Shown: positions 22,898 through 44,905 of the stretch, piece after piece
Numbering within the stretch: the first letter of the stretch is position 1
Layout: every line of letters begins with the position of its first letter
Origin: Cinnamomum chago
Lineage: Eukaryota; Streptophyta; Magnoliopsida; Laurales; Lauraceae
Assembly (NCBI GenBank): GCA_038049695.1
Contig: CP142460.1
Coordinates: forward strand, 38,621,501-38,685,500
Direction: 5' to 3'
DNA length: 64,000 nt
Translations under genes and position numbers: made by a program
The notes under the pieces: model-generated
Databases searched by the model: none
Seen by the model: only the letters and a program-made list of their open reading frames with translations
Told to the model about the DNA's origin: nothing

Positions 22898-24759
22898 TCA
22901 GTTAAAAGGGATCACACATGGATATATTTCCACAAAATGTCGGTCCATACATTGAGGATTTAAGATTTAAATCAATGTGGATAGGGGTCCCTTATGTCGG
23001 CTTAGTTATTCACTTGGTACTCCTCAAGATTGAAGACATTTCGAGCTCTCCATACACGTTAACAAGTCCATAAATCCTCAATAATTCTCCGTGATGGGGT
23101 TTCCTTCTCAACCGGGCTCCAAACATCATTCCCTAGATATCACCCTTGCATTGGGCTCCAAACAGACCTCTCCCAAGCATAAAGAAACAAGTTTTAAGCT
23201 CCCTGAATAGACCCAGGCAGAACCTAGGTTCGCTTGAGCAAGAGTTTCCTCGCTCAAGTGAACCTGCCCAGAAGGCAGTCTCGCTCAATCGAGAGTTTCC
23301 CTCGCTCAACCCAAGCAGCCTGTTGCCTGGGCTGTTCCACTGCGGGTTTCTGGCTCCCTTTTCCAATCTTTTGACGTAATTCCTTCCTCCCTTTGCAACC
23401 CACCTTTGAGCCACCCATTTATCACCAAAATAGGATCTCCTTGTCATCTCAAAACCTTACATAATCCTCCTCCAAACATCCACAAAATGCATCAAATCCA
23501 TCACATTCATTCTCATTTCATCAAAGAAAACCCAACATATATGAAGATCCATATGTAACATAAATCAAGATTTAACCAAACAAGTTAAATATATTTCCAA
23601 GAGATTAAGCAAGAGAGGAAATGACCTATTAATATGCACATTTCGAAATCAATGAGAAATCATAAGAAAGGGCATAATAAAGCGAGTAATGAAATCCACA
23701 TTTCTCATAAAACATGTTAGTATCCAAAACAATCCATTCATCCACTTGCCTTTGGTCCAAGCTAGCAAATCAAGCCTCTAATCACACTCTTAAGCTCAAA
23801 ATCACCAATCTACACAAAAACCCCAAAAAACAACCCATTATAAACCCTAAATGATCAGAACAATAAAATAGAAAGAGGGAGCTTCCAATAATGGAGATGA
23901 AGCTTCTCTAGGGTCACAAGAATACATATCTAGAAGATGGAGATGATTGCTTACTTGGATGACCTTCAAATGGAAAGAGTTAGCTCAAAGAGAGCCTCAA
24001 TGTTGATGGATTTCTCTTTCAAGAGTATCAATGGAGAGTTTGCAAGGTGGAGAAGAAGAAGATGAAACCCATATCTAGATTGGTGCAAGATTGATGTGGA
24101 TTTGGAGACGGAAGCAAGAAAGAGAAGAAGAAATTGCAGGAAGAAACCCTAGGCAGCCTTCAAGGAAGTCTTCCTTCAATGAAAAGGTAGCTAGAAAGAG
24201 TAAAGTGGAAAAAGGGCTCTCCTTTTATAGAAAGTGAAGGTGGGTCCTACAACTTAACATGGCTTGTCGGGCTAAAAACACGTTTCTCGGGGTCTCGGAT
24301 GAATTCCACGAAGAACGAAGAAATGATCGTCAAAATTTCTAGTTTCCAAAAAGTATACATTTTATGGGTTTCGAAGACATTGAAAATAGTGTCCAGATTT
24401 TCATGTAAAAAGATTGTTTTGCCCCTAACATTAGAAAAGTAGGGTTTCGGGGTCTCGAACGAGGCCGAAGTAAATATAAAAGTTGTAAAGATTAACGAGA
24501 TAAGTAAAACGAGGCTTGTTGACACCAAAAATGTCACTTTGCCTCTTCAACATCAAGAAGTCTGATGACACCAAAAATGTCACTTTGCCTCTTTAACATC
24601 AAGAAGTCTGTTGACACAAAAAATGTCACTTTGCCTCTTCAAGAAGCAACATGAAGCCGTATCCTACTACAAGCGAGCAATGCTACTTCAAGCTTCAAAT
24701 CTTGTCAAAATCACTTGAAAACTGCAAGATCCTTCAAGACAGCCAAAAGAGGAGTTCAC

Positions 24760-25400
24760 ATGAGGTTTTGGGCCATTTCAGCATCATTTGACCCAACTTC
24801 ACTCCTCCAGCAGCCAAACAAGCGCTCTTGGCGGCGGCGGCGTCGAAGACATCAAAACTTCGATCTGAGCTTACGGATGGTTTCAAAATACCTCCAAAAG
24901 GCTCCACGTCAAATTTTAGGTCATTCCGGTAACATTTGATCCGACTTCGACGCTTAGAAAGAAAATTAAGCCTCCCGGTGGCGAGAACCATCGGGACCAT
25001 TACTCATCAAACAGAGCACATGGGTGGCTTCAACATGCACCAAAAGGGCTGCACGTCAAATTTCAGGTCATTCCGACAACGTTTGACCCGACTTTGATGC
25101 TCCGAAAGAAAATCAAGCCTACCGGCGGCGGAGCACCCTGGGACCATGACATCCAAATCGGAGCTAATGGATCATCTCAAAATGACTCCAATAGGCTCCC
25201 TGTCAAATTTCAAGTCAATCGGACATCGGTTGACCGCACATCAAAGCGCGACATCTTCCTCGCGGTGAAATCAAGCCTAGCAGGGACGGGACCCCAAACG
25301 GCTTCAAAACTCAAACAAAAGCCCATGGTTAGTCCTATCTGCTGGTCAGGAGGCTTCACGTCAAATTTCATGTCATTCCGACATCGTTTGACTTAGTTTC
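24760..25400 (+). repeat. Diverged U3 subrepeats of about 150-165 bp in the E4 LTR
   Basis: The words GGCTCCACGTCAAATTT, TCATTCCG, GTTTGACCCGACTT and AAATCAAGCCT recur in the same order near 24770 (partial), 24900, 25045, 25195 and 25355. Copies are diverged by substitutions and small gaps. They lie upstream of the TATA box in U3. Tandem U3 repeats often act as enhancers in LTR elements; that role here is inference. Confidence 0.65.
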
Positions 25401-26327
25401 GACTCTTGACAAAAATCGGCAACTCTGCGCGCAAAGTCTTCGGCTTTTCCAAAAAATAGGAAACTTTGTGCTCTGATTTGCACGACTTCTTGTTGGGTTT
25501 TCTTCAAGAGAACCAAGCCAAAAAAATGAGGAAAAATGTCAAGAAAAATACAGGAGAAAAAAAAAGAAACAAAAAGCTCGAAAAACGGCTGACAAAGTGG
25601 CGACCAAAGGGGAGAAACTCCCCCATGGTCGCCGGTGACCCTGGAAATCTAGGTCGCCGGATTTCCGCCGGAAGGCCCCTTTTCCGATTCTTTTCGCGTT
25701 TCGGGAGTTCCAGCCCCTGTGATTTCCTGAAAATCTGATTTTCGACGCTCGGAAACGACTGATCTTCGTCGACATCTCGGATCCGTCGTAAATTGCATGA
25801 GATCGTCATTGATCGCTCCAAGATCGCCAACCGGCCGACCAAGAAAGTAGACTTTCCGTCCGACCGATCGAGAAATCGACAAGCCAGATGGTACCGGCCC
25901 GCTATTAGCAATTTATGTATGAAGTTGCATGGTCATCCGACATCGATTAACATGAAGATCCATCGTCGATCATCGTAAGAAGAATTCCAAAAGACGCGGC
26001 ACGGCCCGCGACTCTTCAAATCCCCGACGACCACTTAATGCTGTTAATTGACCCAACTAAATGCGGTTATTTAACTCATTATTTTTACGGCCCAATCAGA
26101 TTCAAGGAAATGGGAGTTACAAGTCAAAGCCATCATGGCATTAAAGCCATGAAACTCCTCTCATCATGGAGATTAAAGGCGATTAATAGCCCATCATTCT
26201 CCATCGGCCAATCAGATTCCAGGAAAAAGGAGTTACAAAATCAAGAAATAAAAACTTATAACTCCTCCCATCATGAAGCTTTAAAGCCATCAATACTCAT
26301 AAACCCTCCTAATGGCTACCAAAGGCC

Positions 26328-26341
26328 TATAAATAGGAGAT
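26328..26341 (+). promoter_or_regulatory. TATA box of the E4 LTR
   Basis: CCTATAAATAGGAG is a strong plant TATA match at a plausible distance (about 770 bp) from the LTR end. Transcription of the element would start about 30 bp downstream. Confidence 0.6.
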
Positions 26342-27114
26342 TATTCCTAGAAGAACGGATCAAGAAATCCATCTAGAAAAATCGAAGAGAATTAGCCAGG
26401 AAGATCATCCAGAAGCTCTGCTACTCTGAAGAAACTTTGCTACAACAAACACCAAAAGGTGATTGAAGTCTCTTAGGGGGCACTCCCCCCTAAGAAAAAG
26501 CCTTCTCTTTTCCTATTCAACATGGACAAGAAGCGGCTCTTCAACCTGTCTCTTCGTTTTTTATTGGGTATAGGACCTTCCCTTGGTCCTTATCCTCTAA
26601 ATTATTGAAGTCCAAGACAAGCCAAAGAATCAAAGCATCACGCGTTCTCATCTGAAGGACGATGGCGAAGTCCATACATGACTTGCGACCGTCGATCTGA
26701 ACTGGTCTCCGCAATCTCCTGAGAAGTCAGATTCCCTTTCTTACTTTTCTATTGTATTTTGTATTTTCTTTAAGAGACAAAAAAACTCACAATTCTTGTC
26801 TTTCATTTTGATAAGATTTGTAAATCGCCTTTCACGGCAAACAAAATCGCCTTTAACGGCATTAAAAAAAATCGTCTCTTTTCTTAAATATATGTGCAAT
26901 GGAAAATTAGAAAAAAAGTTGATTTCCTTTCTACTTACGAAGGTAGGTCTCTGGATCACCATTTCTAAATTCCAAGTAGAATAGAAAATCTGGCATACAC
27001 GTACAAAAATGTAGATGCCCGTCTTTCTCCCCCTTTCTTCCTTCCATTCGGCCTCTCTCAGTGACCTCGGGGACGGATGGGGGAGGAGGGGAAGAGAAAT
27101 CGAGTCCATCAAGC

Positions 27115-28417: not shown

Positions 28418-30900
28418 ATGGCAGCTTCATTAACCATCACTTTCGATGAGAACAAGTACCAGCTCATGCTCCAGGAGAAGCAGAACAAGCGCACTCATAA
28501 GCGCCCTGCTAGCTGCCGAAGCGTCACCTCCCTCGGCAAATCTCAGAACACCGGGTCGACCTCTACTCCCCGGACTATCATCTTCGGGTCGCTGGGACCG
28601 TTCCCACTTCCCGTAGAGGAAACCGCACTTGCTAAGAAGCATAAGACCGCCCCACAGCGTGTCACTACCATGACACCAAGGGCGAACATGAAGAAGCCTG
28701 AAGCCCGTGGCAACCCCACGAAGCCTCAACCCGCAAAGAACCAGGTCTACCCTAAGACTTGGTCCCCAAGACCTTCACCAAAACAAAGGAGGTCACGAAC
28801 ATCTGCAAGGCCAGCATACCTGGCCCCTCTTAAAGAAATTCGGTTCTATCCTCTTGCATACATGAAGGAGGAGAAACCAGCCTCTTGCCTTGCCTGACAA
28901 AGAAGGCAACTCATCATGAGTCGGCTTGCTCCTACAAGCCAAAAATTAAATCATACATCACCAGGCCTCTATAAGAACTTGCCAAGGCCTGCACTCCTGT
29001 AGTTCGACCTTTTATCTCAATAGGGACTGAACTAGCAAAATTCAAAGCTTCGCTACGACAGTCGAAGGACCGGGTCCAAATCCTGTCTATGCCCAGCTTC
29101 AAAGAAGACAGGCTTGGTTGCTGCACTCGAGGGAGTACATCCTTCATTGCTAAAGCCTGACCAGAGCTGACTGAAGCTCAAATTGCCCGTCGCATACGTC
29201 GTTGCATGTCGTATCGACAAAAGAGACTAAAGAAGCAAAGGACCCAGTATCCTATCCTCCAAGTCTCCCAAAAATGGGTCGAAAAAAAAAGACCCGATCA
29301 AATTGCTACTATCCATATGGTTGGCAAAACCAGAAGATGCCAGAAGTCGACAACGAAACTTCATGTCCGACGACCGGTGACTTGCAGCTTCTCCCAGACA
29401 CGAAGACATCCGGAAGAATCTTCCACTCCTTCAAGCCAAGGACAACGGAGTAATCCTTCCTCAAGCTCTTCAAGAATGAGCCCCAACTCAGTCACCAGGA
29501 CGATCTCCTCCTTCGAATCACGGGGGATGAACGTCTTGGCTACAAACTCTTAGCAACCTCGCAATCCATCTCCTTATGAAACGACCGCACACATCCAGCA
29601 CTTGGAGCAAGGTCAGTAGAGGATTGAGGCTCTGATGGAGAATATTCTCCTCACTTTTTCAGTGTCAAGAAAACAACCAACCTTCTCCAGATAACGAGGA
29701 AAATGCAGAAAACAGTGAGTCACGCCCCTTACCAAAAAGGACGTTGACGATATCCTCGCCAAGGCAAGAGAAGAGGATACGCTGAAGGAGCATGGGATCA
29801 AGCCACCATATCCCTTATGGATGGACTCGGTCCCGTTCCCTGCAAAATTCAAGCAACCTACCCTCCAAACATATACGGGGAAAGGTTCGGCCAGACAACA
29901 CGTCATCCACTTCAAAATATTGACGGGAGCTATCGCGGATCAAGACGCCCTCAAGATCCGTCTCTTCGCAAGTACCCTAAAAGGTACAGCCTTCGATTGG
30001 TACTCCGCTTTGCCAGAGGACTCCATCCAAAATTGGGCCATGCTAGAAACACGCTTCCTGACCCACTTCAAAGGTGAGGATCATCATGTTACTATGGCAC
30101 AGCTCTGCAGCCTAAAACAGGGAGAGAATGAGTCAGCATACGACTTCATTTTCAAGTGGAAGGCGATGGCGTACAAGTGCTCAGATGTGCTGCCACAAGC
30201 GTCGCTCGTTGACATTTGCCGTAACAACATGAGAGTGAGAATCCGCTCCATGATTATCGGCAACAAATCAAAGAACCTGGGAGAACTCCTAGAAGCAGCT
30301 ATGGAGGCTGAAACGGTGATCAAAGACCTCAATAGTCAGCAGTCATCAAAGAAAGAGTCGGCTACCATTACGACCTCAAAGCCAAAGAAAAAGGAGGTTC
30401 TTAATGTGCAAACCAAGTCAGCTCCTCAGTAGCCAAAGAAAACTGAAAATAAAATTGTAGGAAAGAAACCTGAACTCTCTGATGCCTTCAAAGAACGAGT
30501 AGAAAATAAATACCCGTTCGATGAAGATGTTGAAGAAATTTTCGAGGCTCTCATAGCAAATGGTAAACTCACCTTGCCTGAGTCCAAAAGACCGGGAGAT
30601 GTCGGTAAAACCAACGATCCTCGGTATTGTCCCTACCACCAGATGACCTCGCATCCTCTCAACCAGTGTTTTGTTGTGAGAGAGAAGATCAACGAAATGT
30701 GGAAAAACGGAGTCATCACCTTTGACAAAAACTATGGGTCTACCTCCGTCAACATGGTGACATATGGACAAACTTCCAAGTCACCAAAAAAGAAAATCAC
30801 CACTTCCTTCAAGGTGATAAAAATGACCCAGACATCCCAAGAGTTGGTTCTTTATCCAACACCAGACGACAGCCTATACGGGTACACCCCGATCTCCTAG
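28418..30900 (+). pseudogene. E4 gag (degenerate)
   Basis: The ATG at 28418 (MAASLTITFDENKYQ) is the likely start. The first frame stops at 28897, and 28900-29740 is frame-broken. The core lies at about 29745-30432: residues such as TYTGKGSARQHVIHF, STLKGTAFDWYSALP and FLTHFKG match the retrotransposon gag core (strand exchange, W-Y motif). An in-frame TAG at 30430 separates it from 30433-30900, which holds RYCPYHQMTSHPLNQC, the atypical C-x2-H-type knuckle of Tat gags. Gag would package the RNA into particles. With two stops and a frameshift it is not expressible as one protein. Confidence 0.75.
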
Positions 30901-31049
30901 AAGATGAAAACTGGGAGATCGTCAAAACAAAGCCTACCGCTCAATAACGAAGGCAAGCCAAGAGACAACTCTGTAAGCTCAAATAGCAGGAGAAAGCTCA
31001 ACCTAAGAAAAAAGACCCTGAAAAGGCAGAGACCTTTTCCACTGCTTCG

Positions 31050-32348
31050 TTGGGGGCAACGGAAGGATCCAAGGCTTCAAAGGTGGAAAGAAGATTCACC
31101 CTTGGTGATTTCATGCCACCTCAATTCAAAAATGAAACTGTGCAAGGGGCATCATACTCTTGCAATTCGGTAATTGGATTCTCCATGGATGGATACGAGT
31201 CCAGTGACACCGCCATTGACACCGACAAGTGGGAGGAACCCCTTGAAACAGGAGAATACTTCTCCAACGAAGAATGGGTTCCCGAATCTCACCTTATGCC
31301 GGTAATCTGGTATAACCCATATCAGCAACAAGGATCCTGGTCTGATGATGAAGAAGACCAGGAGGATGTTCAAGAAAATGTTGTTGACTCAGCACCCTTC
31401 AACGCTCCAGCAGAACCCAATCGTGTTAAACCACAAGGGGCACACGAAGAAGAAGATTTGGCTCTCATGCCTGATCTTGAAGAGCATGCGAGGATCTTGC
31501 AGCGCCTTGCCTTAGAACAAGAGCAAGATCTTCGCGATCAAAATCCGGAACTGGAAGTCCCTGAAAATCAACAGGCACCTCCTCCCTCAACTCCTGAAAA
31601 TGGAGAAAACTGTTGGATAGATAATCCTCTCACATCCGATGATGAGTTCGACTCCCAACAGTCCACTCTGGAGGAATCTCCCATCAGGGCAACTTGCAAT
31701 GTGATAGCTCAGGATGATAGTGCCTCTGAAGCATCATCTACCGAGGACACGTACTCTCCGGCTACACCTGATAGTATATCTTCCGGAGCCACATTTTCTC
31801 AGGTGACTTCCACTGAGATAACCCCTTCTCAGCCTTCGTCCCCTGAAACCATGACATCACAACTCATAACTTTTCCGACTGATCATCCTGAAGATACTTT
31901 AGCCGATGGACACATGGTCAGTTGGTCCCAAATACCTGACCTCATAGGAGATGTCTGGACCGACAAATTACTCAATGAAGGAGAAAAGTTGCTGGATGTT
32001 GTGCAGGACTTGTTCCCGAAAAATGCTCCATGTAACACAATTACTGAGGATGGTGACTCTGCTGCAGACACATCTTCAGCAAATGAGAAGGATCAACCCT
32101 TGGATCCCAAGGACGATCTTTCAAATGAAGACCCTTCTCAAGAAGCTCTTGAAGTTGGTAAAGGTACCCGTTCTGGCCGAGATTACCACAAAAATTATGA
32201 CCAATCTTCTTATTCTTCTTCTTCTTATGTAAATCCTTCGGGAACACAAAATGTAAACGCCCCAAGTGGTAACAATAATGAAAATGTAAGCCCGAAGGAG
32301 GCTTTCAAGTACGACTTGATTGAGCACTTCAAACACATACCTGCATGA
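31050..32348 (+). pseudogene. Acidic linker between E4 gag and protease
   Basis: A 432-residue open frame with no domain I recognise, rich in Glu, Asp, Ser, Thr and Pro (SSTEDTYSPATPDSISSG and similar low-complexity stretches). It follows gag after a frame change near 30900-31050 and is in frame with the protease, separated only by TGA 32346-32348. A long acidic insert here is probably part of the gag-pro polyprotein. Its openness over 1.3 kb compared with the broken neighbours suggests composition and not necessarily selection. Function unknown. Confidence 0.55.
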
Positions 32349-32372
32349 CTGCACATCCTTGATTTATTACGA

Positions 32373-33653
32373 ATGTCTCCACACACTCGTAATAATCTCA
32401 TTTCAGAACTACAAAGATTGAATGCGGATGTCGACAAACATGCCCCACAAGTCCTACAAATTGAAATGGACTATAGGGTCAAAAAATCGAATACTCTCTC
32501 AAAGGGAGAAAAGAAGAAAATCGAGGGATCAGGCATTGAACGCCTCTCGGTACAGAAAGCACCAAGTGCAACCATCGCCATTGGTAAGGATGACCTCCTG
32601 CTAGGCGAGACAAAGCACAACCGACCCCTGTACTTCACCGGGTACATCAAAGAAAGGCCGATACACAGAGTCCAGATAGACCCAGGTTCTGCACTCAACC
32701 TCATCTCTACTTTGGCACTTGAAGAGCTGGGTATCCCACCTAGCAAGCTGAGACACACGTCTGTATCCATCTTTGGGTACGACGAGAGCACTTAAAGGCC
32801 TATCGGCAAAATCAGGTTCAAGTTGCAAATCGGTGATCTTATCTCTGAAGTCACTGTGTATGCAATAAGAACCCCTTCATGCTACAACATCCGTCTTGGA
32901 CGCCCCTGGATACACGACAATGGTGTTGTCCCTTCAACTCTACATCAATGCATCAAGTTCGTTGGCAACGACGGCTCGATACATCGAGTGTTTGCAGACA
33001 AAAAACCCTTCAAAGGCCAAAAAGTCCATTTTGCAAATGCTCAAATGTACAAAGATGAAAAAGAAGGAAAGGATGAAGAAATAACACCCTTTGCTGAAAA
33101 TCTCCAGAAAGATAAAGGCAAAACTCCTCAGTGGTCATCGGAAGAAAACAAACCTTCCGGCAAATCCGAAGAGAACAATCCATCTCCTTTCGTTGTCTCT
33201 CTCAAATCTTTAAAGCCTTTGGTCATCACAACCAGAGCAAAGAAGACAAAGCAAAAGTCTGGGGGCATGCTTGTTGTCTCCTTCGTGTCTATCATGCAAG
33301 ACATGGATTCAGAGTCAGAGTCAGAAGACGACACACCGTCAAGCCAAGCTGACACTCAACAAGTTCAGCCTGCTCTACCTCCAATAGAGACACCTGCCGA
33401 CGTGGAAGATCCTGCGTCTGCTTCCTTCGTTGTTCCGACAACTTCAGCCGAAGAGAAGCCAATCTTCTTCCACAGATCAGAAGCTTCTTCATCAAATTCC
33501 ATGCTTGAACCTTTTCAAAATGAAGGTATGCCTCAACTATTTCTATATAGTCATGTGGCACAAGCTATCATGAAGAAAATGGGTTATGACACTCAAAACC
33601 AGTCGGTTTGGGGCAAGGCCGTGGTATCCTCACACCATTGGAGCCTGCCTTAA
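32373..33653 (+). pseudogene. E4 aspartic protease region
   Basis: In the first part QIDPGSALNLIS occupies the active-site position; many Tat-type proteases have D-x-G-S-A-L-N there, so Asp and Gly are kept. A TAA at 32793 interrupts the domain. The same frame resumes at 32823 with CYNIRLGRPWIHDNGVVPS, the flap-distal ILGRPW motif, and continues as an acidic tail to 33653. The protease would mature the polyprotein. A frame change near 33610 leads into the RT frame. Not functional because of the internal stop. Confidence 0.75.
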
Positions 33654-34291
33654 CCAAAAGTCAACTGGAAGATTGGAGACTCTACGGGCATGTAGAAAAA
33701 TCTTCACATAGGTTGGAGTATGATCCCGGCACTCCCATGAGACAATTGACACAAATGATAAAGAGTCGATTCGCCGACCAAGCCTCAACATCTCATGTCC
33801 TTGAAGACATCGATCTCCCTGGATATCTCTTTGAAGAATCACCCGTCAAGGATCCAGGAAGCTCTACCAATTCGTACGATTTCTCTGATGATGAAGAGTA
33901 ATTGTTCGGTGATAAAGACATGTGGCGTTCTGACCCAGAAGAACCGTCGTCTCCAAAAGAAGTACCTTACTTCAACCCAGTTTCAACAAGCGATTGGGAT
34001 CACCTCATAGCAAGCCTTGAGAAGATCACCGATCCTGAAAACCCATGGTCAGAAGCAAAGCCTTGGCCTGAAAATGCCCTTGAAACTCCAGAAGGTTTCG
34101 TTGAGTTGGAAGCCTCCGAAAATATTGTGGAGGAACCACCTTCGAACCTTCCAACAACAGATCATGTTCAAAAGATATACTTGGGAACACCAGATGACCC
34201 ACGTCCTGTATTCATAAGCAAGAGTATAAAGGATGATGAGTTACCCGAATATATCTCTTTTCTTCTTGAGTTTATTGATTGTTTTGCATGA
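33608..34291 (+). pseudogene. E4 linker between protease and reverse transcriptase
   Basis: Open in the RT frame except for TAA at 33899-33901. It ends at TGA 34289-34291, ten residues before the RT remnant. The end reads VQKIYLGTPDDPRPVFISKS and LLEFIDCFA, the usual lead-in to Tat RTs. It overlaps the protease tail in another frame, consistent with a frameshift. Confidence 0.6.
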
Positions 34292-34303
34292 TCTTATGCT
34301 GAA

Positions 34304-36088
34304 ATGCCTGGCTTAGACCCCAAAATAGCAGTCCACAAACTCAATCTACAAAAAGATATCAAGCCTGTCAAACAAGGCCAAAGAAGATTCCGTCCAGACA
34401 TGATGGACAAAATTGAACAAGAAGTTCAAAAACTCAAAAGTGTCGGCTTCATCCGTGAAGAACAACATCCTGAATGGTTAGCCAACATCGTCCCTATGAC
34501 AAAGAAAAATGGGCAGATCAGGGTCTGTATTAATTATAGAGACCTAAATGGTGCTTGCCCCAAAGATGAGTTCCCGCTCCCCATACCAGAGGTGATGATT
34601 GACAACACCTGTGGGTTTGAGCGAATGACATTCATGGATGGATTCTCTGGCTACAATCAGATAAAGATGCAACTCGAAGATGAAAAACACACATCATTTC
34701 GGACCCCATTTTGCGTGTATTGCTACACTGTCATGCCATTTGGTCTGAAAAATGCTAGTGCCACATATCAGTTGGCTATGATGAAGATATTCGAAGATAT
34801 ACAGCACAAGACAGTTGAATGTTACTTTAATGACCTCGCCGTCAAAAGCAGAAGAAAAAAAGACCATCTGAAAGACCTTCGGGAAGTTTTCCTCCGACTT
34901 CGCAAACACAAACTGCGAATGAATCCCCTGAAAAGCTTATTCTGCGTCTCATCGGATAAGTTTCTCGGATTCATAGTCTGGAAAGCTGGAATAGAACTTG
35001 ACCCCACCAAAGTCAAGGCTATCCTAGAAATGCCATCTCCAAGAACCCTAAGACAACTAAAAGGGCTTCAAGGGAGGTTGGCGTACATCAAACGGTTCAT
35101 CTCCAATCTCTCGGGGAAATGCCGTCTTTTTTCTCGGTTGATGAAGAAAGGTGTGGACTTTGTTTGGGATGCTGAATGTGAAGCAGCATTTCAAGACATC
35201 AAAACATACCTGACCAAACCTCCAGTGCTGGCTGGCCCCACAACTGGAAAACCATTCATCTTGTACACAAGAGCTCTCGACCATTCCCTGGGCGCTCTGC
35301 TTGCACAGGAGAATGACGAGAGAAAAGAAGCTGCTCTATACTACCTCAGTCATATTCTGGTAGGTGCGGAGCATCGCTATTCTCCAGTCGAGAAAGAATG
35401 CCTTGCAGTGATGTTCGCCGTACAAAAGCTACGTCACTACCTTCTTTCGAACACAATCTACCTGATTTCGAGGATCAATCTCTTAAAGGTCCTTGTCACG
35501 AAAGTAGGTTCTCTCAATGCCCGACTGGCAAAATGGTCAATCCTCCTATCACAATTTGATATCAGGTATGTACCACAAAAGGCAATCAAAGGCCAAGCTC
35601 TGGCAGATTTCCTCGCAGAGCATCCGTTGCCTAAAGATTCCCCACTCAGAGATGATCTCCTAGACGAACCTGTCTACAATGTGGAGACTTTCTCACCAAA
35701 TGCCTCCTGGGACATGTACTTTGACGGTGCAACCAGAACAAATGAAAAAAGAAAGCTGATCTCGAGAGTTGGAATCCTCTTTGTTATCCCCGACAAGCAC
35801 ATAATTCCACATGTTTTCTCGCTGCTGGAACCATGCTCAAACAATGCAGCTGAGTACCAAGCCCTGATTGTAGGAGTAGAATTAGTCTTCAAATCCGGCA
35901 TCACCATGCTGAAAGTCTTTGGAGACTCTCAACTGATCGTCAACCAGATGAATCAGAAATTTGAAGTCAAGAAGCCTGATCTGCTGCCTTACTACAACAA
36001 GGCGCAATCACTTCGCCAAAGGTTTGACATCTGTCACATCACCCACATCCTCAGAGGTGAGAACATCCGTGCAGATGCCCTGGCCTGA
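34304..36088 (+). pseudogene. E4 reverse transcriptase, RNase H and second RNase H
   Basis: A 594-residue open frame. RT fingers/palm: RVCINYRDLNGACPKDEFPLP, FMDGFSGYNQI and MPFGLKNASATYQ. The catalytic YxDD reads YFND (34823-34834), so the first active-site Asp has become Asn. RNase H follows (PFILYTRALDHSLGALLAQ, EKECLAVMFAVQKLRHYL), with its first Asp position replaced by Arg. A second RNase H-like domain (WDMYFDGATR, NNAAEYQALIVGVE, VFGDSQLIVNQM, ENIRADALA) keeps its D-E-D-D set. This tandem arrangement identifies the Tat lineage. A TGA at the end blocks the link to integrase. Confidence 0.9.
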
Positions 36089-37482
36089 CTTGCCGCATCC
36101 ATGGCAATCCAGGAAGGGGAAAACATGCAAATTATAGTGTGTCAAAGAAGGATTCTCCCTCCTCTTAACATGCACCAAGCAATTGCTGAATGCCACCAAT
36201 TGGCCGGAAGTCGGATCTTTATCCTCAAACCTCCGATCTGCGACTGGAGAGATCCGTTCATTGATTACACCATGTTCGGAGTCCTCCCTGAAAACCCAAA
36301 GAACGGGTAAGCATTCAAAGACGAGCCCCAAACTTTCATTAGGACATACCTTCAAAAATGCTTTATAGAAAATCCTTCGACGAAGTACTTCTGCGCTGCT
36401 TGTCACAACAAGAGGTTAAGGAAACCCTCAAAGAAGTTCATGCTGGTGTGGAGCTCATCAGGCTGGTCCCAAGCTCTACGATCAGATAAAAAGGTTGGGA
36501 TATGGTAGCTGACGCCATGCAATTTGCTAAACGCTTCCGCCAATGCCAAGTTCATGGAGACTATGTTCATATGCCTCCAGAATGGCTACACTCCACAGCA
36601 ATCTCATGGCCGTTCGAAGCTTGGGGTATGGACATCATAGGTCCTATCTCTCCCCCATCAAGCAAAGGTCATCGCTTCATCTTCGCCACTACAGATTATT
36701 TCTCCAAGTGGTCAGAAGCATTTGCGCTCAGTGAAATGAAGACCTCATCAGTCCTTTAATTCTTGCGCATCAACATTATTTGTCGCTTCGGCATACCTAA
36801 AAGATTCGTTCATGATAACGGACCGCAATTCCGGGATCACCGATTCTACAGGTTTTGCGACAAATACAAAATCCAGAGTTGTCCTTTGACTCCGTACAAT
36901 CCGGCAGCAAACGGACTAGCAGAAGCCTTCAACAAGACACTCTGCAAAATTCTCAAGAAAATGGTCTCTAGTCACAAAAGAGACTAGGGAGATAAACTAC
37001 CTGAAGCTTTGTGGGCTTATCGAACCATCGTTCGAGGACCAACCCATAGCACACCATTCTCTTTGGTCTATGGATGCGAAGCTGTTGTCCCTTTGGAAGT
37101 ACAAATTCCTTCATTAAGGGTATCTTTGCAAAATGACATGACGCAAGAAAGCAATGTTAAACTGAGACTCCTAGAATTAGACAATCTCGACGAAAGACGG
37201 CTCGAAGCCTTACAAAGCATTGAGTTGTACCAAGCATGCATGGCAGGATCTTTCGACAAAAGGGTCCGGCAACGCGCCTACAAAAAGGGTGACTTGATTC
37301 TTGCAGTAAAAAGGCCAATGGTTTTCGCCTACAAATCCAAAGGAAAACTCGAACCAAAATGGGAGGGACCCTTCGTCATTGACAAAGTCTTATCCAACGG
37401 CGCATACGCACTTCTAAACATGGAAGGCGACAGATGTATGCTGCCCATCAACGGCAAGTTCTCAAAGCGGTACTACCCTTGA
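36089..37482 (+). pseudogene. E4 integrase
   Basis: The N-terminal part (36101-36480) is frame-broken. The core is read in one frame from 36502: AWGMDIIGPI (first Asp), FGIPKRFVHDNGPQF (second Asp), NPAANGLAEAFNKTLCK (Glu), so the DDE triad is kept. Stops interrupt it at 36757-36759 and 36985-36987. 37009-37482 is the C-terminal part (STPFSLVYGCEAVVPLE; KWEGPFVIDKVL) and ends with RYYP, a common Tat pol terminus. Integrase would insert the cDNA. No chromodomain follows, as expected for Tat. Confidence 0.85.
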
Positions 37483-38280: not shown

Positions 38281-38725
38281 TAAAACCAAAAAATTAGCTA
38301 TAAATGCCACAAAATCGGCTATAAATGCCAAAAACCCGGCTCTCACGCCAAAAATCGGCTATAAATGCCAAAAACTCAGCTCTCATGCCAAAAATCGACT
38401 ACCAACGCCACAAAATCGGCTATAAATGCCACAAAATTTGGCTTTCATGCCAACAAAACAAAACTCAGGTTTTCAAAAAAAAAATTGGCTATAAATGCCA
38501 CAAATTCGACTATAAACGCCACAAAAAAATCGGCTATAAACGCCACAAAGTTTCGGCTTCCATGCCAAAAACAAATCCCGGCTATCAATGCCACAAACAA
38601 AAAATTTTGGCTCCCATGCCACAAACAAAACCGGCTTCCATGCCATCCCAAATTTTTGGCTTTCATGTCATTTCAAAAAAACTTTGGCTTTTATGCCATC
38701 TCAAAATTCGGCTTTCACGCTAAAA
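38281..38725 (+). repeat. Short-unit array (GGCTATAAATGCCA) after E4 pol
   Basis: About 18 copies of a 20-26-bp unit, such as AAAATCGGCTATAAATGCCA and the variant CGGCTTTCATGCCA. The core GGCTATAAATGCC is partly self-complementary (GGC...GCC), and each copy embeds a TATAAAT word. ORFs across it (repeated NATK/MPKT peptides) are by-products. Confidence 0.85.
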
Positions 38726-38981: not shown

Positions 38982-39913
38982 TCACATGGTTTTCAACCAA
39001 AGATTCAACTCCTTAAGCAGACTCTTGGACTTAGTCTTTAAAGCTTCCAGGCCACGCTTCTTCAAGATCTTCCCATAGAATGCTGCAGAACGCCGCAATC
39101 CATCTGCAGCACGGGGAAGCTCTTCCCAAAGAATCTGTCGTTGCTTGTACTCTTGCATCTTCCTCCGGAGATTGCTCTTAGCCTCCTCAACTTGGCGAAT
39201 CAGAGTCCCTTCTCTGGCACGAGCTTCCACAATGGCAGCTCATTTTGCAGCAGCTTGTTCCTCCAATAGCTCAAGACGTTGCCTGGTCTCAACGACCTTT
39301 CTATCAACACAGCGCAGGTCCTCAGTCAGCCCGATGATAGCCAACTCGGTAACGTTCCTCTCCCGAACGAATTGCTTCCAAGTCCGCGAGATCTCGTCCA
39401 GCTCAGACTTGACCTCGCCAGAAGGCTTCAAAAACATCTCATTGAAGAAGTTACCACTTGGGAAGCTCTTGGTTTCATTCCACTTGCTCCCTAAAGCTAT
39501 GACTTCATCAACGAAAGCCTTCGCATCTGCAATGTCCAGGTCGACTTCCTTGCTATCAGCAAGGATGTCATGTACATGCTTAACCATGCCAAAGCTAGCT
39601 TCCAAATGGTCAGAAGAAAGAGTTTCGATCCATGAGCTCAAAACGCTCTTCAACACTTTCTTCGCATACTCAAGAGATGGCACGGACAAAGTCTCGCCCC
39701 TCTCCATTAGTCGACTGCCCGTGTCATGTCCTGTTGGAGGAGTGATCATTAAGCTCTTTCTAACCGGAGACACTGGCAAAGGAATCTGCTCAGACGATTT
39801 CGTCTTTGCTGCATTGAAACTAGAAGAAAAAATCTCTACTTCTGGTTCAACTGCAGGCATCCCCTACTCTGGCACTGAGAAAGACGGAGGAACTTCTTCT
39901 GCTACCTCAAAAC
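38982..39913 (-). pseudogene. Coiled-coil terminal exon of the antisense gene
   Basis: It opens after the acceptor TTTTGCTGGCAG (39914) as GFEVAEEVPPSFSVPE. It is interrupted by TAG near 39865 and by TGA at 39242-39240. The same frame then continues to the final stop at 38982. The last 250 residues are rich in Glu, Lys, Arg, Leu and Gln with heptad-like spacing (ETRQRLELLEEQAAAK; EEAKSNLRRKMQEYKQRQ), a probable coiled coil. The upstream donor is not visible; a former GT may have mutated near 39945-39950. Confidence 0.65.
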
Positions 39914-41312
39914 CTGCCAGCAAAACAAAACAAAAAAAAGAGGTATGAATATGATCCTGTTAAAGATTTTCATCATCATCAGGATTATTGCTACAAATAC
40001 TTTCTTCGACGATTGGCGGAATACTTTCTGCCTCCATGAGTTCATCTGAAGTGTCGTCAAAGGCTGCATCCATGGATGGCTCGAAATTATCAGAATCCTG
40101 TGGCAAGTCAACTAACAAGAAAACAAGCAACATGTTAGCATATGACAGCATAGACAAAAAAAACAGAGAAAGGAAAATACAAAGAAGTCATACCATGTGA
40201 AGATTCTGGAATCATTTCAGAGTCCCTTGGTTCTTCTTCAGATGCCGCAACCGGATCCGTCACTGCCTCATCGGCTGGAACCTCAGGCATCATCAAGTCC
40301 TCATCTTCTACTGAAGAAGGGAGAGAAAGCAAATAAAAAAAAGAAACGAAAAGGGAAAAAGGAGGAATCATACCTTCATCAATGGTTTCTTCCTCTCGGC
40401 TCCTCTTTTCCAGAGGCTCATCAACATCCCCTGACATCTCTTCAGCGGTGGCGAGAGGGACTTCCGCATCAGGAGAGTCATTGTCTCGTCTTTTATTACG
40501 GCGCTGCCCTCTCTTCCTCTTGCTTCTATGGGTTGGTTTACTTGAAGTACCAGCCCCATTGTCAAAGTCAGCATCTCCGCTTGATTCCTCACCGAATGGT
40601 CTGCTCTTCCCAGTAGACTAAATGGAAGCCTTTGTTAATTCCGCTTGCATCCAAGCGTCGATCTTGGCTTCCTCCTCTTCTAGCTGTTCCAAGACCTCAC
40701 TAGGTATTTATTGTACAGCTTCTGAAGTGATGATGTCCTGCTCACAGAGAAAGTCGATCTTGTGCTTCTCTCCGGAAAGGAAAGTCAGAACTTCCTCTCA
40801 CCAGACTCCATCTGATGTTCCAAGACCCTTCCCAGGAGATTGCTTGACATCAAGCTCCTTCTTGGAAAGCCCCCGGTACACTGAAAAGTTTTCCGCAAAC
40901 CGTTTAGTGAAACCCGCAGTCCGGACAGAGGGCAACTCAGGATAGGAAATCATGGCGGTAGTGTCCTCCGCACTGTAAAAGGCCCATGCATTCCTCCCAT
41001 CCTGCAAACTTCCAAAGCACTTCACCATGCTCGAAGGCGTTCCCACAACGCCTTGAGAGAAACCCAACTGCAGCGCGAAACGCGAGGGAACATATGGCTG
41101 GATGTCAACAAAAAGATGTCTCCGGTACACCATCGTACCAACATGTATGTTAAAAAGCCATCCCTTTTCTGCATTGGTCAATGAGTAGTGTCTTCCCGAC
41201 CCCGCCCAGATGGAATCGCAGGAGGCTCCGAAGTCAAAAGCATTCTTCCGCAAACCCGGAGAAAGCTTTACTGAAGATTGCCCGATCTCGACGTCCTTGA
41301 ACTGTCAAATCC

Positions 41313-42180
41313 TCAAACGGGCAAACAAAAGAGATTCTCGTTAACGGTTATCCCTCTAGCCAATCGAATCATGAAAGGGTCATCATCCTGTGCAACTCCT
41401 AAGCGATGGAAGTCGGGACAGTGGTACACATACCACGAATAAAAAATGTGGGCTAAAAATACCCTGTTCATAGGGAGCCCAAGCCGAACCAGAAAGGCAG
41501 CAGCCTGCAGTTCAGTACACAAGTTGGAGTAAAGAGCTGGCACCAAAGCAAGCCGCTCTCCGAATGCCATCTGATAAGCTGGAAAAATACAGTGCGGCCT
41601 GATGTGTGTTCCATCTCCTCCAGCAAAAACAGCCTCACCCAACCAATAAGTGAGGTAAATAGCGAGATCTCTCCGCAGTGCAATGTCAGGACAAATGGCG
41701 TCTGTACTCTCGAAGAACTTCTTCAAGTCATCTTGCATAACGGAGATCTTCTTCATACCTGGGTTCTTGGTCTTGGCATCTTGGGCCATACCATCAGAAG
41801 ATTCTCCGCCGTCAAAGAAGTTGGAGCTGCAATTCTTCCAACTGCTACCCTGGACTTTCAAGCCCTCCTTCTCCTTTAAAAAATCATAGAAGGCGACAAG
41901 CTGAAAGTACAGGAGTCTAAACTCCTCATACTGCTCCTCAAGGACGCTGTCAATAGGCATAAACTCCTCATAGAGTTTGCCAAGGATGGGCAACCCGGTG
42001 ATGACGCTTAATTCCTTCAAAGTAAAACCAATCTCACCGTTCGTTACAACGAAGGTGTTGGTTTGTGGAAGGAATGACTCTAGCATGGCCATAAAGGCCT
42101 CATCGGAGAAAACCAAGGTCTGCCGAAAAGCGCGAACCGCATCGAAGATCCTGGCCTCCTTCAAAATGGCTCCGCCAACC
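41313..42180 (-). pseudogene. Core of the plant mobile domain in the antisense gene
   Basis: The frame reads VGGAILKEARIFDAV, then FSDEAFMAMLESFLPQT, FVVTNGEIGFTLKELSVITGLPI and KLYEEFMP. In plant mobile domain proteins the pattern 'G E ... T L ... L ... GLP' marks the same region. Further on, TYWLGEAVFAG, HIRPHCIFPAYQMAFGE, ALVPALYSNL and FYSWYVYHCPDFHRL follow in the usual order. A TGA just upstream (M-D-stop, near 42194) and a frameshift at about 42200 separate it from its N-terminal part. I identify the family from remembered motif style; a profile search would settle it. Confidence 0.7.
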
Positions 42181-43815
42181 GCAGGGTGTGATCAGTCCAT
42201 GATTCCCAGCTCGAATCAACACTGAAAAGGCCATGAAGTCGAAAGGCTTCACCCAACTGCTGTCGTCACCCCGAAAAATGCCAATGCCAACCGGTCTCAA
42301 ATTGACCGACGGATGGTCAGAACCCTGGTAGCCACTGGAGGGCATCAACATGTCCATATGGACGGGCGACTTCTCCGCATATCCGGAAGGGCCGCCAACA
42401 AAAACCTCGGTCTTTATCACATTGGTCCTCTTCATCCAGCTTGGAGGACCTCCCTCTTGGGACGCATGGGAGAAAGACTCATGATCGAGACAGTCCGATC
42501 AAAAGTCGACCGGGTAGAAATAGTTCTCTCATCACCATCAGCCGTGTAAGAGAACTGAAAAAATCTCCTTTGGTACATCAAGTCGTCAGGGACTGCATCG
42601 CGAAAGAAGAAGGTAGGCTTGGGCACAATGCTCTGATCGTCCATGACCCAAGGACGATTGCTTGCCATAACTCTGTAAAACTCCTCATCCTTGAGAGCGA
42701 TTAATCGCTGTCTCATCTCATCGCGGTTGAGGGAGTCACACTCTTCCAGGTTTCTCTCCACAAACTGGACCTTCTCCCAGGCCTGCTGTACAGCCACATT
42801 AGGAGACCTGGTAGACCGGCGAGGTGCATCAGTAGCAGGCTCTTTGCCCTTGTTCGTTCTGGAGGAACTACCTGCAAAGGACGAAAAAGGAAAAAATCAA
42901 TCATTAAAGTGATAGAATTTTGCTAAGAAAAATTCTAGCAAAATTTTGGCATGATTCCGGGACAATTCCGAAGAAAAGGGAGACACCCGAAGAAGACAGG
43001 AAGCTTGAAGATGAGCTCAACGAAGCATCCTCAAAGAAGGTTTGAACTCAAACATTGTTGCGAGATCAAACCAATTTTATCGAATCTCCGCAAGTTTGAA
43101 GAAGGGCTCAACATCGCTGCGAGCTCCAAACTCCAAAACTTGCAAAGCTTCTCAAAATCCAGCAAGGTCAGGAAATGGCTCAACATTGCTACGAGCTCCA
43201 AATCCCAAAACTTGAAAAAGATTTCTAAGTATGCATCATCATGCTCCCAATCAATTTACTAAAAAGCATGCATCCAAAAATTATCATGCATTAGATGCTA
43301 GGAAAACTTTAACCAAAGTCTGATCAATCCCAACCCAACTTGGTCAAAACCAATCACACTTTGTCAAAGTCAAAATTCATGTTGACTCAACCTAGAGATT
43401 CTAGCCTTTTATCTTGATGCATAAAAAAAAAAGGGGAAAGAAAGACAATATGCATGAACATCTTGGAATGCATAAACCTCATCATCATGGTGCATAAAAC
43501 TCATTATCATGGTGAGCAAAAAAAGAGGAAGAAAAAAGGAGAGAGAAGTTTCAAAAAAAAAAAAATTTGGGCAGCAGACTGTGGCCCACTACCACGTGGC
43601 AGTACGGCCAAGTCCGAACGAACCTGTCCATACAGCTAAGGAAAAAAAAGCGTCAGCAAAAAAAAAATAGCACGTGAAAATAAAAAGAGAAAAAGAAAAC
43701 ACGTGAGAAACAATAAAAAAAAGAAAGAGAAGGAGAAAGAAAAGAAAAGAAAAGAAAAAGAATTCTACATCTACATGAAATTTCTTGTGGAGAAAGAAAA
43801 CTTACTTGAAGCCAT

Positions 43816-44378
43816 TGATGGAGAAGAAGAGGAAAAGTTTGAAGATCTTTGAAGAAGAAGAAAAACTCTTGATCTTGGAGCACTCTTGCAAAGAAAGAAG
43901 GCAAAGAAACAAAGATCCAATCTCATCTTGCTTTTAAAGAAGAGAGCAAATCAAAAGAGGAAACAAAGAGAAAAGAAAGGAGGTAAGTGCTAAAAATTAG
44001 CAACCTTCCCAAAAGAAAAGAGATTTGAGATATTCTCTCCCAAAGAGAATATTCTTTGAGAAATTTTCTCCAAAAAGAAAGGGAATGAGAAATATTCTCT
44101 CCAAGAAAGATACTTTGAGAAAATCTATCTAAAAAACAAGGAAGCTTGAGAGATTCTCTCCAAGTAAGAATATTCTTAGATATTCTCTATCCAAAAGAGA
44201 TATTTTCAGATATTCTTTACAAAATGACACCATGTGAGACCTAAGCCATCTTTAAAGCTTAAAGTCCCATGGGCTAGCCCACATGAGTCAGGTTTGACCA
44301 CCTAGGAACTAAAAGGGGCTTTCTTTCAAAAAATTCCTCTTACCAAGAGCATACAAAATGGTTTCATGCCTCTTTGCA
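43816..44378 (-). promoter_or_regulatory. Upstream region of the antisense gene
   Basis: On the minus strand the 60 bases before the ATG are CT-rich, as in many plant 5' UTRs. A weak TATA-like CTTTAAAAGC lies near 43930-43940, about 120 bp before the ATG. 43980-44225 is a purine-rich block with repeated GAGATATTCTCTCCAA words. A promoter here is inference. The plus strand has no gene. Confidence 0.35.
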
Positions 44379-44905
44379 AGTCCAAGCCAAGCCAAAGAAT
44401 CAAAGCATCAAGCGTTCTCATCTAAAGGACGATGGCGAAGTCCATACATGACTTGTGACAGTCGATCTGAACTGGTCCCCGCAATCTCCTGAGAAGTCAG
44501 ATTCTCTTTCTTACTTTTCTATTGTATTTTGTATTTTCTTTAAGAGACAAAAAAAACTCACAATTCTTGTCTTTCATTTTGATAAGATTTGTAAATCGCC
44601 TTTCACGGCAAACAAAATCGCCTTTAACGGCATTAAAAAAACGTCTTTCACGGCAAACAAACAAATCGTCTCTTTTCTTAAATATATGTGCAATGGAAAG
44701 ATAGAAAAAAGATTGAGTTCCTTTCTACTTGCGAAGGTGGATCTCCGGATCACCATTTCTAAATTCCAAGTAGAATAGAAAATATGGCATACCCGTACAA
44801 AAATGTAGATGCCCGCCTTTCTCCCCCTTTCTTCCCTCCATTCGGCCTCTCTCGGTGACCCCGGAGACGGATGGGGGAGGAGAGGAAGAAAAATCGGGTC
44901 CATCA
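44379..44905 (+). mobile_element. E4 3' LTR remnant
   Basis: It matches 26609-27111 of the 5' LTR closely, with one 24-bp duplication of CGTCTTTCACGGCAAACAAA near 44640. The first 2.1 kb of the LTR and the polypurine tract are missing. At the break both sides share AAGTCCAAG, so a deletion through short homology is likely. It ends CATCA before the AGGCT duplication. Confidence 0.85.

Follow-up and report, generated by a model that had tools for sequence, protein, structure and literature searches.

Within the 64,000-nucleotide stretch of Cinnamomum chago contig CP142460.1 analysed here (the window), an Ogre-like Tat (Ty3/gypsy) retrotransposon carries on its minus strand, between the integrase and the 3′ long terminal repeat (LTR), a gene for a protein with a plant mobile domain. 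This antisense unit is probably an accessory gene of the retrotransposon, composed of five exons and formerly under purifying selection, of which the window holds a dead copy. It begins with an ATG at 43815 and ends with a TGA at 38984-38982, its four introns are all GT-AG and all of phase 1, and the removal of intron 4 takes out an in-frame TAA. An hmmscan search with the window open reading frame (ORF) 41313-42164 identified the domain as PF10536 (E 2e-15, 57.3 bits versus a cut-off of 34.9), and the related protein P0090 covers positions 1-346 of the 347 of the profile. In general, the original prediction of a Tat-type element harbouring an antisense mobile-domain gene with introns agrees with both the structure and the copies. 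Its start codon and mobile domain were recovered, and the basic, nuclear localization signal (NLS)-like and acidic stretches are readable in the translation, while the coiled coil has as its sole basis a heptad count on the relative P0063. The three introns that it named all begin with GT and end with AG; the fourth had been overlooked. Likewise, the continuity claimed for the frame holds at the splice junctions, where the exons join properly when read by eye, but not within the exons, as the window copy contains six internal stops and four frameshifting indels and is a dead pseudogene.

Conservation of the gene among copies of the element

The genome, 1.06 Gb in 14 contigs, was searched at the DNA level with the domain piece, which returned 1614 first-look candidates; the best 40 were scored, with the window itself reaching 100% and the remaining 39 falling at 91-92%. 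Twenty further copies, located on ten contigs, were fetched and all of them align with the gene region, whole or partial, nine as a single alignment from 44375 to about 38700 and the rest in pieces or in part. The junction between gene and LTR recurs in 15 copies, and pol adjoins the gene in both copies that were read 7 kb further, L039 (with L059; 91.1% identity) and L047 (with L060; 89.6%). In a separate search with 43816-44374, 39 among the 40 top matches listed span the full query and one spans 3-559. Fifteen rows, window included, entered the frame and indel, substitution and breakage analyses, and up to 16 the splice-site counts. Specifically, the partial copies L041, L042, L049, L050 and L056 were left out of the alignment, and L045, which lacks 40600-40140, was left out of the codon counts.

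Over the 15 copies the exons measure 10, 2499, 117, 111 and 932 bases, that is, 1222 codons and a stop in one frame (the exon 5 alignment has 933 columns, including one base past the stop). Each copy has 4-10 stops in this frame, the terminal one included, versus 41-62 and 79-99 in the two shifted frames. Short indels, counted up to 30 bases, occur per kb per copy at 0.77 in exon 2, 3.0 in exon 4 and 0.93 in exon 5, with none in exon 3, and at 9-17 in the introns; intron 1, with 10.98, has about 14 times the rate of exon 2. The ratio of nonsynonymous to synonymous substitution rates (dN/dS) averages 0.365 (range 0.277-0.492 over 105 pairs, which are non-independent) versus 0.742 and 0.733 in the shifted frames, in line with the expectation of a value below 1. 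By part, it amounts to 0.30 in the N-terminal portion, 0.32 in the mobile domain, 0.34 in the rest of exon 2, 0.46 in the acidic exons and 0.44 in exon 5. For pol, two pieces with three pairs each gave 0.21-0.36, the region 34304-36088 lying at 0.21-0.23. Variants present in at least two copies comprise 221 nonsynonymous and 213 synonymous changes, and singletons 518 and 255, respectively (Fisher P 5.5e-8); older changes would therefore have passed a filter that later ones, arising in dead copies, escaped. On these sequence comparisons, the frame was held by purifying selection in the past, while the family spread. The conservation anticipated in other copies was thus found, each being broken somewhere, yet with the frame and most splice sites in common. 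Three outcomes had been set beforehand as refuting the prediction, namely no profile match, copies without the frame and the splice sites, and no excess conservation; all three were looked for and none was observed.

Splicing and alternative explanations

Evidence on splicing comes from the copies and from relatives in avocado (Persea americana), to which all plant-named relatives of the mobile-domain protein belong among the 120 of 177 matches listed. The splice dinucleotides are kept at 116 of 124 copy-sites, the average for other intron dinucleotides being 0.863. The avocado annotated proteins P0034 and P0048 run from exon 2 through exons 3 and 4 to exon 5, joined at the same residues (P0048 as read by eye), and the N terminus of P0037, MASSSSSR, corresponds to the join of exons 1 and 2. 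Five proteins derived from unspliced contigs (P0089, P0090, P0095, P0066 and P0077) enter intron 1, 2 or 4 at the expected points, as read by eye. The proteins from European Nucleotide Archive contigs were considered as possible cDNA products and rejected, since P0066, P0077, P0089 and P0095 hold intron sequence and therefore look genomic, while P0062-P0064 and P0070 begin inside exon 5 and are uninformative. Several family proteins (P0090, P0006, P0019, P0020, P0026 and P0158) are filed in public databases under bacterial names and most likely represent plant DNA contaminating bacterial assemblies. The short ORF P0144, from a EukProt Trinity transcriptome assembly, attests no more than that sequence of this type is transcribed somewhere.

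A number of observations weigh against the interpretation as a spliced, formerly selected accessory gene. The shifted-frame dN/dS values of 0.73-0.74 also fall below 1, so that the method is biased low, and since all 15 copies are broken, with 3-9 internal stops and 1-7 frameshifts each, selection can be read only for the past. Exon 2 has 29 short indels, just one with a length that is a multiple of three, as expected for mutations in dead copies, and the low indel rate of the exons may be due in part to homopolymer-rich introns. Exons do not consistently show less nucleotide diversity than the other parts (exon 3 0.117, exon 2 0.089, intron 1 0.124, intron 3 0.092, 3′ flank 0.086). As to splicing, eight randomly drawn dinucleotides reach the observed mean conservation in 8.9% of draws (P 0.09), a test that is weak because the copies are young. 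The avocado models vary, P0098 going from exon 3 to exon 5, and may be ab initio predictions; P0144 comprises 104 residues within one exon and has no bearing on splicing or strand. The splicing of the four introns is predicted from DNA and gene models. At the protein level, AlphaFold on P0089 with 30 relatives yielded a pLDDT of 40.9 and no usable model; nuclear location, partner binding and anti-silencing activity are all predictions, the last being the function best supported on general grounds.

The doubts on splicing bear on the possibility that the gene was selected with its introns unspliced, the exons giving separate proteins. No spliced RNA was seen and exon 2 by itself gives database proteins of about 800 residues (P0089, P0090), as this explanation would have it; nevertheless, exon 1 has just three codons and one base, the small exons 3 and 4 stay in frame with their neighbours through phase-1 GT-AG introns, and P0034 and P0048 join exons in avocado, which makes it improbable. 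A similarly slim chance is given to the antisense RNA itself being the working product, pairing with the genomic RNA and tuning silencing. Regulation by double-stranded RNA has been raised for plant antisense ORFs (PMC7264820) and the gene overlaps the 3′ end of the element; the frame-specific stop counts and the dN/dS of 0.365 favour a protein, although RNA effects could be additional.

The origin of the gene raises further alternatives. The original prediction saw a host gene taken up as cargo, and the multi-exon layout does resemble an ordinary gene, with a domain also found in host genes. A recent capture of this kind is nonetheless very improbable: some avocado models share the exon design, domain clades exclusive to Gypsy elements have been reported (PMC5418596), and L001 and L002 of the same genome, presumed to be of host type because they are unbroken and clustered, share only 22-27% identity with the window domain, to which L003 gave no match. 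On sequence grounds the gene thus appears to belong to the element instead of being recently captured cargo, because all 20 copies carry it, whole or partial, pol adjoins it in two and its frame was under selection. An ancient uptake from the host is possible, since Ikeda et al. 2017 (PMC5418596) do not decide which side took the domain from the other. As for an unrelated gene or transposon inserted once into the window copy, the window has many repeats, but the same junctions recur, with pol in two copies and with the LTR in 15, and this explanation is hardly conceivable; a nested insertion is ruled out by the copies that share the junctions.

The gene and its element in the window

The element extends over 24516-44904 (Table 1), with a shortened 5′ LTR, the plus-strand genes for gag, protease, reverse transcriptase (RT)/RNase H and integrase, and a remnant of the 3′ LTR. 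Accordingly, the predicted site of the gene between integrase and 3′ LTR holds, but the LTR is represented there only by its terminal portion. In the comparable LTR ends 480 of 506 ungapped positions are identical (K about 0.053). Traced outward, one copy has 757 bp of LTR in L048 and a further 2530 bp in L061, about 3.3 kb when counted from the junction, and at a second locus the length is about 3.05 kb by coordinates alone, provided that both matches are one element; the LTR is at least ~3 kb long. The idea that the LTR of the window copy differs from that of 15 relatives was rejected, as the common ~530 bp are the terminal part of a longer LTR. Most of the 3′ LTR is missing from the window copy, whose break at 44375 coincides with the point where the common LTR-like sequence of the other copies starts. 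A polypurine tract with an LTR start near 43990 is a candidate only; two stretches of 1.3-1.4 kb fetched for the start of a 5′ LTR (L062, L064) gave no match.

Table 1. Positions of the antisense gene and of the parts of its element (window coordinates)
Feature	Position	Strand	Evidence
Exon 1, three codons (ATG included) and one base	43806..43815	-	avocado model P0037 begins MASSSSSR
Intron 1, GT-AG, phase 1	42872..43805	-	GT 15/15, AG 14/16 copies
Exon 2, N-terminal part, plant mobile domain, basic NLS-like stretch	40374..42871	-	PF10536; 2499 shared alignment columns
Intron 2, GT-AG, phase 1	40311..40373	-	GT 14/15, AG 13/15 copies
Exon 3, acidic	40194..40310	-	78% identity to avocado P0034 over 36 residues
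Intron 3, GT-AG, phase 1	40112..40193	-	GT 15/15, AG 13/16 copies
Exon 4, acidic	40001..40111	-	86% identity to avocado P0034 over 36 residues
Intron 4, GT-AG, phase 1	39914..40000	-	GT 16/16, AG 16/16 copies
Exon 5, coiled-coil-like C terminus, stop TGA 38984-38982	38982..39913	-	stop common to 15/15 copies
TTTAAAA-containing block ~120 bp before ATG	43931..43945	-	each column kept in at least 14/15 copies
5′ LTR, first ~585-600 bp gone (counted from the junction matching 44375); short repeated start at 24516 and 24563, continuous from 24609	24516..27112	+	matches to LTR sequence of other copies
gag capsid ORF	29821..30432	+	PF03732 E 5.3e-12
Protease region, weak	32373..32795	+	Asp_protease_2 E 0.018, under cut-off
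RT, RNase H and second RNase H (RVT_3), open	34304..36088	+	PF00078, PF17917, PF17919, PF13456
Integrase region, stop-interrupted	36490..37479	+	frame fragments; corresponding part of copy L060 has PF00665 E 4e-15
Tandem repeats, 20-61 bp units, between integrase and 3′ end of antisense gene	38286..38720	.	Tandem Repeats Finder
3′ LTR remnant, only last ~530 bp of LTR	44375..44904	+	comparison with other copies

The assignment to the Ogre lineage of Tat is suggested by the great length of the element and of its LTRs. A second RNase H (PF13456) follows the first, with the integrase downstream, a trait common to Ogre and Retand, and several ORFs lie across 29821-37482 in this decayed copy, the Ogre trait compared being two polyprotein ORFs separated by a gap or an intron. 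The frame from RT to RNase H is open over 594 codons in the window copy, though the antisense gene is heavily broken, and such tandem repeats have also been described in about half of the Retand elements. Transposase_28 (PF04195) was absent from the hmmscan results for four window pieces and for P0089, P0090, P0048, P0063 and P0077, which otherwise gave PF10536 and matches under the cut-off; a sequence search of the PDB gave a single chance-level match (E 0.84).

Mobile domains also occur elsewhere in the genome, the PF10536 profile listing having 133 rows, all at other places and none of them the window's own copy. A second, repeated and very different mobile-domain family (L004-L008, and L063 at 3-1130 on the minus strand) is 23-29% identical to the window domain and has inside the mobile domain a stop-bearing gap, possibly intronic. 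It is adjoined by a long convergent frame in which hmmscan gave no family at 0.01, and which we take, by its motifs, to be a MULE-type (Mutator-like element) transposase with an OTU-like end.

Related systems and a possible function

Plant mobile domains (PMDs) borne by Gypsy elements are already known (PMC9289625). In particular, Ikeda et al. 2017 (PMC5418596) describe the clades PMD-A1 and PMD-A2 as old and exclusively Gypsy-encoded. The gene studied here shares with them the presence of the domain within a Ty3/gypsy element, being antisense beside RT, RNase H and integrase in the window and in two copies; it differs in its five-exon antisense structure, which is unmentioned in the portions of that paper drawn on here, and the likeness to these clades is one of encoding context. 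Similarly, 57% of the Ogre elements of Neumann et al. 2019 (PMC6317226) have pfam10536 in extra ORFs, and the window element has in common with them its giant size, the domain in an extra ORF and the second RNase H, placed after the first and before the integrase. Extra ORFs are defined there as open frames of at least 250 codons, however, and the sections consulted describe no multi-exon genes and state no orientation of the domain. The antisense TRP28 genes of Retand and Grande (Vicient 2025, PMC11963269; PMC7264820) also lie between pol and the 3′ LTR with tandem repeats nearby, and a promoter upstream of gene23 is reported for Grande, but their domain is PF04195 and the parts of these sources used here list continuous ORFs, not spliced genes.

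A comparable arrangement outside plants is that of HBZ and APH-2 of human T-cell leukemia viruses 1 and 2 (HTLV-1, HTLV-2; PMC10186651), spliced antisense genes that a retroelement expresses from its 3′ LTR and that encode nuclear regulators, as predicted for the present gene. The proteins are unrelated and the splicing of HBZ, as given in that source, alters the 5′ part of the RNA and does not involve four introns along the gene; the resemblance would be one of working alike only, with no kinship. The host proteins MAIN, MAIL1 and MAIL3 (PMC7156037), finally, have the same Pfam domain, but are cellular silencing factors, while the window gene is element-borne and has acidic and coiled-coil-like extensions. 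In the open-licence literature no account was found of a plant retrotransposon with an antisense mobile-domain gene of several exons, an absence that weighs little because the search took in open-licence papers only, with supplements and the primary extra-ORF paper, Steinbauerova et al. 2011, outside it. The conserved five-exon antisense design may therefore be new, while Gypsy-borne mobile domains are not, nor is the idea of counter-silencing, which is in print (PMC8616336) and has been put forward as a speculation for MULEs (PMC5418596).

A mechanism can be proposed for an intact accessory gene of this kind. RNA polymerase II would start at a promoter that lies within the 3′ LTR or just inside it and would transcribe the gene leftwards, and the TTTAAAA block at 43945-43931 is a possible candidate core promoter. 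The four introns would be spliced from the leftward RNA and could survive retrotransposition because the genome-length sense RNA, by the logic of the sequence, presents them as CT...AC and would leave them in. The protein produced would be large and would combine a basic stretch, presumably for nuclear targeting, with acidic exons and a coiled coil. It might help the element by mimicking the host MAIN/MAIL1-PP7L silencing complex, itself built from the plant mobile domain, and disturbing its action. Such an anti-silencing role is the most likely function, yet a tentative one, with somewhat less than an even chance on its own. That Ogre-type elements permanently keep a spliced five-exon antisense gene, protected by its orientation from intron loss and with a product jamming MAIN/MAIL1-PP7L, is, taken as a whole, rather doubtful.

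Surveys limited to continuous antisense ORFs may overlook or split genes of this kind, because an ORF finder does not see the fourth intron or the small acidic exons. If spliced RNA were confirmed, the gene would be a case of a four-intron retroelement gene that passes through replication via RNA with its introns intact, and would provide a natural protein with which to probe the use of the mobile domain by Gypsy elements against a host silencing pathway that shares it.

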